DNA of 64,000 bases from Halorhabdus utahensis DSM 12940 (GTDB lineage: Archaea; Halobacteriota; Halobacteria; Halobacteriales; Haloarculaceae). The translations under genes and the position numbers were made by a program. Below, piece after piece: positions 6,951 to 52,433 of the stretch; the first letter of the stretch is position 1; every line of letters starts with the position of its first letter. A model generated the notes under the pieces. The model saw only the letters and a program-made list of their open reading frames with translations, was not told the DNA's origin and did no database searches. The stretch covers positions 2,852,001-2,916,000 of the forward strand of contig NC_013158.1 of the NCBI RefSeq assembly GCF_000023945.1. Reading direction: 5' to 3'.

Positions 6951-7056
6951 ACTCGCCCTTCACTGGGGAGTACCTAAAAGTCGGGCTTGCAGGCAGGTAC
7001 TGTCCCATTCCGTCCGGAACCTGCTGTTGTGACCATGCAACGCCAGAAGTATGGCT

Positions 7057-7124
7057 GGAGGTGGATTTGAACTACGCTCAGACGTGCTCGCTCACGCCGA
7101 TCGCTATGCGCGACTGGTTCAAAT
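7057..7124 (-). repeat. tRNA-iMet 3'-end hairpin unit 0 (degenerate)
   Basis: The most distant copy. GGAGGTGGATTTGAAC at 7057-7072 matches the T-arm/acceptor end of tRNA-iMet; the inverted partner is weak (ttcaaat at 7118-7124). The acceptor end CGGG is replaced by TGG, so this copy has decayed most. Confidence 0.45.
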
Positions 7125-7384
7125 TAAATTATTATGTCTTTCGCATACGGCGAGCGAAGCGAGCCGTTTCACTCGACCGAGCGTCGCGAGGCTCGAACAA
7201 AGTGAGAGCCTCGGTATTACGAACGGCGACCAGCGGGAGCCGTGAGTAGCGAGGTCGAGTCTTTTTGGTCCAGCTTTTTCGAGTCGAGCGGGACCTTCGG
7301 TCCCGCTGACCGTGCGAACGGACGCGAGGCGTCCGTGAGCAGAGAGTGGTCGCCGAAGGCGACCCGACGATGAAAAAGGTGGTA

Positions 7385-7449
7385 TAGCGGGAGGTGGATT
7401 TGAACCGCGGTCGTTCCGCTTCGCTCCACTTCCTGCTTCAAATCCACTA
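7385..7449 (-). repeat. tRNA-iMet 3'-end hairpin unit 1
   Basis: TAGCGGGAGGTGGATTTGAA (7385-7404) is identical to the 3' end of tRNA-iMet. An exact 11-bp inverted partner follows: gtggatttgaa at 7394-7404 pairs with ttcaaatccac at 7437-7447 across a 32-nt loop. On the minus strand this is a hairpin followed by the tRNA tail CTCCCGCTA. Confidence 0.7.
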
Positions 7450-7511
7450 CGGCGACAGCACAGCGAGGATGGCGCAGAGATACACCTCTGCGCCGTAAAT
7501 TCGCTGAGAAG

Positions 7512-7579
7512 TAGCGGGAGGTGGATTTGAACTACGCGAAACGCTCGCTACGCTCGCGTTTCTCTATTTCAAATCCACT
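7512..7579 (-). repeat. tRNA-iMet 3'-end hairpin unit 2
   Basis: The same design: tRNA 3' end at 7512-7532, arms 7521-7531 and 7568-7578 (exact 11 bp), 36-nt loop. The loop holds an inner pair AAACGC / GCGTTT, different in sequence from the inner stem of unit 3. Confidence 0.7.
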
Positions 7580-7642
7580 CTATACGGCTTTTGGCGACGC
7601 TGAACTCGTCGCTTCGCTCCTCGTTATTTCGCCGCCAAAAAG

Positions 7643-7711
7643 TAGCGGGAGGTGGATTTGAACCACGCCCACTTCGGTCGCTTCGCTCCCTCGTGGTCTA
7701 CTTCAAATCAC
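7643..7711 (-). repeat. tRNA-iMet 3'-end hairpin unit 3
   Basis: tRNA 3' end at 7643-7664, arms 7652-7662 and 7702-7711 (one base missing in the second arm). The inner loop adds ACCACG / CGTGGT. This unit is nearest to the real tRNA, about 45 bases downstream of it. Confidence 0.7.
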
Positions 7712-7756
7712 CGTGACCGATATTCGCCGCTCGCGAGTTTGCGAGCGGCAGAAGTA

Positions 7757-7831
<75 letters not shown>

Positions 7832-8073
7832 ACCTATCTGTACCCTCGGTCGTCAATTAAGGGTTGTGATTCGGATGCCGTCCGTTAATTCCTACCGTGC
7901 CTGGCCAGCCAGTTCGACGGAGCCATTCCGTCGGATACCCGCCAGTGAGCTGATCGGCCCTCGAACTGACGCCAACCCTGCTGTCGACTGGGCGAATCCA
8001 CGACGAGACTGCCGGTTTCGGGCGTCAGCGGACGATGACACAAGACCTTTGAGGGGGTTGTCCGTTCCCCTGG

Positions 8074-51628: not shown

Positions 51629-51713
<85 letters not shown>

Positions 51714-52433
51714 CTTCTATCGCGAGCAAAACCGCGAGCGATTGCTGTGCTGATGAGGATTGGTGGGGATGAAGATTCGCCGGCGGGTTCTGACCCTGAT
51801 CGGCGTAGGTTTCGACTGAGTTCGCTGCAAGACAGCGTCAGGCCCGTCGCGGTCGGCCGTGTTCCACCGTTTGACGGACCGGCAGTACTCCACAGTCACT
51901 TCGGAGGGACACAGGAACTGCTGTCGATCGATCCGCAGCTGTGATACAGCCCTTCATCTGTGACAGGCCCTCTCTCATACCTAAAATTTGCCACGTAGTG
52001 CGGGCAGTCAAAACCGCACTATTGGAGTATCAGTCTTGATAGCAGATTTCCCGAACCCACTCGCTATCGACGCAACTGAGATCCAAGCCGCTTTCGATAC
52101 CGAGATCGCGGGAAGCAACGGAATGTGCACTTCGGTATCGGCCTCAGAAGCTTTTCGCTCAACATACCAGGCTCCATTAAAGAATCATAGTTGATAATTC
52201 TGGGAAAAGGTTTATTATTGTGCAGCAATGAGCTTTGATTGTGGCACCGCAAGGTGCCCAACTTTCCCACCCCCCACCCCCACCCCTATTCGTTCAGTAG
52301 ATCACTCGTTGGCTACTGGCAGTTCTCCCAATCCTGTCGATCCTACATCGAACGAGAACGGCGGACCTGATCGACGGGACATCAACAGGCCGTTTTTACG
52401 AAACAAGACTCAATAGGAACGAAACTGGACGGC
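51714..52433. other. Gene-poor stretch after tRNA-Leu(GAG)
   Basis: About 720 bases without a believable gene: frames are short, with unlike codon use and no resemblance to families. A run of cccaccccccacccccacccc occurs near 52258-52285. It may be a decayed insertion beside the tRNA, but no integrase or matching tRNA-end copy was found. Confidence 0.4.

Follow-up and report, generated by a model that had tools for sequence, protein, structure and literature searches.

The array downstream of tRNA-iMet

The window, a stretch of 64,000 nt, belongs to a genome that consists of a single 3,116,795-bp contig. The tail of its tRNA-iMet gene (T54-N73, sequence TTCAAATCCACCTCCCGCTA) is followed by three intact units and one decayed unit, and the array occupies positions 2859052-2859832 of the contig (Table 1). 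Read on the tRNA strand, each unit opens with a spacer hairpin (A), continues with an inverted T-loop arm (T*) and a structured loop (L), and ends in a copy of T54-N73. The loop class of unit 1 is also present at tRNA-Val, and the A hairpin of unit 3 is kept at the iMet gene of sister species. A hairpin-rich stretch of 313 nt sets the decayed unit 4 apart.

Table 1. Parts of the tRNA-iMet array, in order along the tRNA strand (window positions)
Feature	Positions	Strand	Remark
tRNA-iMet (CAT) gene	7756..7832	-	T54-N73 tail at 7757-7776
Unit 1, spacer A: T-rich start, then GC hairpin	7713..7756	-	from the sequence
Unit 1, T* (inverted T-arm)	7702..7712	-	9/11 paired
Unit 1, structured loop L, 39 nt	7663..7701	-	class GTAGACCACG..GTGGGCGTGG
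Unit 1, tail	7643..7662	-	exact copy of T54-N73
Unit 2, spacer A with hairpin	7579..7642	-
Unit 2, T* (inverted T-arm)	7568..7578	-	11/11 paired
Unit 2, structured loop L, 36 nt	7532..7567	-	AAACGCGAGCGTAGCGAGCGTTT, GTA triloop
Unit 2, tail	7512..7531	-	exact copy of T54-N73
Unit 3, spacer A	7448..7511	-	hairpin GGCGCAGAG..CTCTGCGCC
Unit 3, T* (inverted T-arm)	7437..7447	-	11/11 paired
Unit 3, structured loop L, 32 nt	7405..7436	-	GCAGGAAGTGGAGCGAAGCGGAACGACCGCGG
Unit 3, tail	7385..7404	-	exact copy of T54-N73
Hairpin-rich insertion between units 3 and 4	7129..7384	-	relation to units tentative
Unit 4 (decayed), T*	7118..7128	-	8/11 paired
Unit 4 (decayed), loop L, 46 nt	7072..7117	-
Unit 4 (decayed), tail copy	7052..7071	-	2 mismatches

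A preliminary description of this locus had proposed four units with 11-bp arms set 30 to 45 bases apart, each carrying the tRNA tail. All four units are present, but only two have fully paired arms, and the fourth unit is decayed. The second pairings that it had noted inside the loops do occur.

A second hairpin-rich element, TACCACCTTTTT..GTCGGGT with AAAAAGCTGGACCAAAAA inside it, follows several tRNA genes either directly or after a unit; its sites are window 7129-7384 and regions downstream of tRNA-Pro and tRNA-Arg genes (L068, L079, L045, L051). An element ACCACCTTTTT..GTCGGGT that resembles window 7129-7384 is also found 3' of other tRNAs. At tRNA-Leu (gag), window 51629-51714, an A-type hairpin comes next and is not accompanied by a tail copy, and several other tRNA genes of the genome are arranged alike.

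Tail copies at other tRNA genes and in other genomes

The window array is one instance of a much larger phenomenon. The tRNA model finds 42 tRNA genes in this genome, and about one third of them have near-exact copies of their own tails within a few hundred bases downstream, with none upstream at any of the 42. The copied tail is that of each tRNA itself and not that of iMet. Further genes have decayed copies or an A or T* element alone, and the tRNAs concerned overall are Lys, Thr, Arg, Gly, Asp, Val, Ser, Glu, Leu, Ala, iMet and others. Among 96 tRNA genes chosen regardless of hairpins (these 42, the remainder being mostly iMet genes of relatives), 47 have a downstream tail copy and none has one upstream. 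Most of the copies are exact (49 of 69), and the unit spacers have a median of 111 nt and a range of 47-161 nt, with one of 244 nt. About half of the haloarchaeal tRNA genes examined have one to five modules downstream, always on the sense strand of the tRNA. Some tail copies are split between the T-stem and the acceptor part by short hairpins (GAGAGAGCAAGCTCTCTCGAGCC.. GTGCTTCACG..), giving hairpins nested in hairpins, and the split falls at an equivalent position from one tRNA to the next (L054, L058, L069, L070, L196, L163).

Chance can be excluded as the source of this arrangement. The iMet arm sequence occurs seven times in the 3.1-Mb genome, always at the tRNA-iMet locus (control 0), and the pattern GGATTTGAA-N22..52-TTCAAATCC has 13 sites genome-wide, all of them immediately downstream of tRNA genes (control 0). 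With 13 of 13 hairpins so placed, there is no sign of the dispersal through intergenic regions that, along with a foot tetranucleotide and a Y1 transposase, characterizes REP/RAYT or IS605-derived hairpins.

The borders of the direct repeat are well defined. In 134 hairpins located by the T-loop core and its inverted partner alone, leaving the acceptor part unused, identity to the tRNA is at background over positions 46-51, reaches 0.99 at G53, stays at 0.81-0.96 over 63-73 and drops to 0.50 at 74. These sharp edges place the direct repeat from G53/T54 to N73; it ends at the discriminator base and does not include CCA.

The hairpin is present in 238 of 292 haloarchaeal genomes, representing 68 of 77 genera, with no hit in the reversed control. 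In a sample of the phylum Halobacteriota, the pattern occurs in 49 of 53 haloarchaea (a subset counted by hand from the table) versus 1 of 242 other members. All 22 hairpins sampled from other genomes lie downstream of a tRNA gene on the same strand, as do 64 of 68 in named genomes, the other four being at contig ends; in a further set the only hairpin that is not directly tRNA-downstream is 2.5 kb off, beyond an inserted element. Two Woesearchaeota MAGs and several relatives (DPANN) share this anatomy, and their own-tail copies stand at tRNA-Ser, Ile, Leu and Asn; this distribution outside the haloarchaea comes from sampling with a single pattern of the GGATTTGAA type. Exact own-tail copies with T* are also seen 3' of several tRNAs in Woesearchaeota-type genomes (L405-L409 in G554, L411, L413, L415). 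The preliminary description had named a lack of copies elsewhere among the conditions that would leave simple decayed duplications; this condition clearly fails, as copies abound within the genome and across haloarchaea. Its suggestion of a palindromic repeat that targets tRNA ends fits well with a repeat that is haloarchaea-wide, found at many tRNAs and oriented.

A pattern search of IMG/VR does not find the haloarchaeal hairpins in viral contigs. A viral origin was rejected, since the matches are chance hits, tRNA genes or palindromes of a Bifidobacterium prophage type, and none is on a recognizable haloarchaeal contig. The plasmid search recovers only tRNA-iMet genes themselves. A tRNA-iMet gene is common on haloarchaeal megaplasmids.

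Pairing and folding of the hairpins

In the 96-gene set, T* pairs with its partner in the tail copy (T^) at 92-97% over positions 54-62, and pairing falls to about 22% by position 65. The T* sequence follows its own tRNA, as its best complement to the T-arm of that tRNA scores 10.28 of 13, versus 9.32 ± 0.10 with permuted tails. At positions 57 and 62-65, with the arms fixed by the invariant core, agreement is 3.37 versus 2.56 ± 0.05 when all tails are permuted and 3.15 ± 0.03 when they are permuted within one isoacceptor across species; the permutations leave relatedness in, and the effect is thus strong but not phylogenetically corrected. At position 62 of tRNA-Met there are 23 G-C and 14 A-T pairs with no G-T or A-C intermediates, and at position 57 C-A mismatches outnumber T-G wobbles (14 versus 3). 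When tails differ, T* often departs from its hairpin partner, and it matches the upstream tail better in 19 cases versus 6. We dropped this ratio as proof of cassettes because the decay of distal copies confounds it.

Compared with shuffled sequences, the hairpins are much the better folders (mean z = -4.5). Of the two strands, the tRNA-sense strand gives the better fold in 77 of 99 cases (77:20), or in 75 of 99 with DNA parameters. Single mismatches in the hairpins are G-U in 21 cases and A-C in 26, whereas the same data give 113 and 5 for the acceptor and T stems of 254 tRNAs, and the wobble-tolerant covariation expected of a structured RNA family does not appear. Mismatches on the sense strand are purine-purine, above all tandem GA/GA. 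Triloops of the GNA type (GAA, GGA, GCA, GTA) account for 196 of 271 small end loops on the sense strand and for 4 of 9 on the antisense strand, and GNA loops closed by G-C pairs are known as extraordinarily stable DNA mini-hairpins (PMC4686876). From the lack of a G-U excess, the GA/GA and GNA motifs and the strand bias, we infer that selection acts on a folded DNA strand. In appearance the array is closer to a DNA recombination cassette than to a small RNA.

The strand bias could instead reflect RNA. The units may be a tRNA 3' trailer that functions in termination or 3' processing, for example as back-up terminators or decoys, and their exclusive sense orientation, the better folding of that strand, the T-rich start of A directly after N73 and the partial maintenance of A hairpins between genera speak for such a role. 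Hairpins can also terminate transcription in Haloferax volcanii (PMC7237163). We nevertheless consider this explanation unlikely, as it must accommodate the missing preference for G-U over A-C so evident in real tRNA stems (113:5), the excess of C-A over T-G at position 57 and the presence of units at some tRNAs and species but not others, and it leaves the acceptor copy unexplained. Rfam matches only the tRNAs and one unrelated leader, and none of the units. The small RNA family or RNase Z decoy proposed in the preliminary description is not supported, given the G-U counts, the frequent mismatch of T* to its hairpin partner and the absence of an Rfam match. The Rfam leader RF03135 (L4-Archaeoglobi) matches at 72 bits in a haloarchaeal genome (L053, 2120-2219).

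Turnover, integration and relation to known systems

At tRNA-Ser and tRNA-Val, A and L segments are combined and ordered differently from species to species; they shuffle independently of each other, and the junctions fall at the T-arm copies. Modules are gained, lost and reshuffled between species. Some A and L sequences are conserved between genera. At tRNA-iMet, the L order I-III is common to the window's genome and two sisters, and the window's genome has an extra proximal unit. Of 30 arrays with at least two units, 11 show the stronger decay in the distal copy and one shows it in the proximal copy. An integrase element directly follows the tRNA-Leu tail in genome G141, whereas in G010 the same element follows one complete unit. 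This empty/filled pair implies that the tRNA-proximal end gained a unit and that T54-N73 was duplicated exactly, but homologous recombination with a donor array would look identical.

Elements with a PF00589 integrase occur at tRNA-Leu, Glu, Gly and others. Among 20 elements, wherever a distal att copy was found, it nearly always matches the tRNA from in or near the anticodon region through N73, an exception being a G141 copy at 5.9 kb, which shares only the tail. The array units have a different core, sharing just T54-N73. The tail copies might be displaced attR ends that remained after element loss, since archaeal integrases usually target tRNA genes (PMC8371274) and integrase elements are present at the same tRNAs. 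The att-core comparison has already largely refuted this idea, older arrays are intact beyond the attR of integrase elements, and spacers of 47-161 nt (one of 244 nt) with conserved modules are unlike random deletion remnants, making it very improbable. The integrase elements at these tRNAs leave no such hairpin, which bears out the earlier argument that ordinary integration does not yield an inverted partner.

Integrases of the SNJ2 type in haloarchaea use the 3' tail as a short att site (PMC8371274), and every unit offers this tail. A host might thus keep the units as decoy attachment sites that divert integrating viruses from the tRNA, a possibility that we find hardly credible because no element was found inside an array unit, the observed elements sit at the tRNA itself, and T* has no explanation. 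One apparent gene-bearing unit (L227) was rejected after comparison with G141 and relatives, being a conventional integrase element that an inserted unit separates from the tRNA. This element (G010 C14 299000-303000, at tRNA-Leu) has an integrase frame broken by TGA, and intact relatives exist in other genomes.

We tentatively favor, at somewhat less than an even chance, an interpretation of the arrays as DNA hairpin cassettes anchored on tRNA genes, with G53|T54 as the point of entry and the tRNA regenerated each time. Recombination within the T-loop/3' tail would bring a cassette in at the tRNA-proximal junction. Each new module would carry T54-N73 and so restore an intact tRNA, and the old tail would be displaced downstream, which could account both for the exact end at N73 and for the stronger decay of distal copies. 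The T*-L-T^ hairpin may be a folded single DNA strand that serves as the recombining or recognized structure, as in integron attC sites; the GNA triloops, tandem GA, strand bias and lack of a G-U excess suggest such folding. The cassettes carry no genes. A putative recombinase would act in trans, and the modules probably spread, and are reshuffled, through homologous exchange between strains. The interpretation as cassettes draws on the own-tail copies at many tRNAs with none upstream, the presence of the hairpin in 238 of 292 genomes (control 0), its association with tRNA genes, the sharp G53..N73 border, the agreement of T* with its own tRNA, the independent shuffling of A and L, the 11:1 distal decay and the G141/G010 pair, together with the sense-strand folding, the GNA triloops and the missing G-U excess.

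Several observations count against these cassettes. No gene-bearing cassette with unit junctions was found. No enzyme was identified: there is no IntI-type integrase beside the array, the PF00589 matches of the window's genome being far from 2859052-2859832, and PF00589 presence fails to separate array-bearing from array-free DPANN genomes. The array-bearing DPANN MAG G556, which may be incomplete, has no PF00589 match. With no haloarchaeal hairpins found in viral contigs, no free carrier is known. The conservation of A and L between genera is not required by pure mobility, and all of the gain and loss seen could stem from homologous recombination between tail repeats and lateral exchange.

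A rival explanation dispenses with dedicated machinery altogether. Because tRNA 3' ends are hot spots of recombination and replication slippage, tail repeats might expand, contract and homogenize by homologous or short-homology recombination, both within and between strains, and T* might be kept complementary through hairpin-templated repair, that is, template-switch repair of quasi-palindromes. In favor of this account are the concerted tails found within a genome, the separate shuffling of A and L at short motifs that they share, covariation free of wobble intermediates, and a T* whose fit to the upstream tail equals or exceeds its fit to its partner (19 versus 6, partly confounded). We regard this account as doubtful but worth serious weight; it leaves unexplained why the borders are exactly G53..N73, why orientation is strictly sense and why the GNA and GA motifs are strand-specific, as well as the restriction to haloarchaea and some DPANN (1 of 242 other Halobacteriota).

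A conserved architecture behind about half of the examined tRNA genes of a major archaeal class has neither a name nor an Rfam family. If the arrays are cassettes, they would constitute a new DNA-hairpin recombination platform on tRNA genes that bears on the reason for integration hot spots at tRNA 3' ends, and if they act as RNA, they would be a new class of tRNA trailer; either possibility is directly testable in genetically tractable haloarchaea. Repeats of tRNA 3' ends are not automatically mobile-element scars. A search of the open-access literature found no description of the arrays, and on the basis of this search and of Rfam the anatomy is apparently new and undescribed.

The units resemble the small mobile repeats, MITEs and PATEs of Haloquadratum in being short, non-coding, hairpin-bearing haloarchaeal repeats (PMC3119063). 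However, the targets of those repeats are other mobile elements, and their ends are terminal repeats or of the IS605 kind (PMC3119063), whereas the tRNA-tail units are strictly tRNA-downstream and copy the tRNA tail. Tyrosine integrases of the SNJ2/HHPV4/pNOB8 type also use the 3' part of a tRNA and regenerate it, but the att cores tested begin in or near the anticodon region, the elements are kilobases long and there is no T* partner. Palindromes of a Bifidobacterium prophage type (L085, L089, L317, L320) share an inverted T-arm, a palindromic inner part, and a T-arm plus acceptor tail on one side only. They differ in being near-perfect over 25 bp, single-copy and next to a PF00589 integrase, with no array or A module. 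They occur in Bifidobacterium chromosomes and bifidobacterial-looking prophage contigs (L085 2325-2382, L089 13876-13933, L317 and L320), and possibly represent a hairpin attP.

Casposons and CRISPR spacers integrate directionally at tRNA 3' ends or leaders and duplicate the target end. As cassettes, the arrays would share directional insertion with target-end duplication, but here the repeat is T54-N73 and the modules are homologous to one another. Integron attC arrays are oriented at a fixed site and consist of strand-specific folded hairpins with variable inner structure, the proximal ones least decayed, and a G|TT junction. By analogy, the tRNA arrays also appear oriented and fixed in site, with a strand-biased hairpin, a variable L and distal decay, and as cassettes they would also share the G|TT junction. 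They differ in that they anchor on the T-loop, carry a tRNA 3' end and sit at many tRNA genes, with no such integrase or cargo genes found. Taken to its full extent, this likeness would give haloarchaea and some DPANN an integron-like system, improbable as a whole, in which tRNA T-loops are the platform and cargo-free cassettes, folded as single-strand hairpins, are placed at G53|T54 by a putative recombinase, each bringing a fresh tRNA 3' end.
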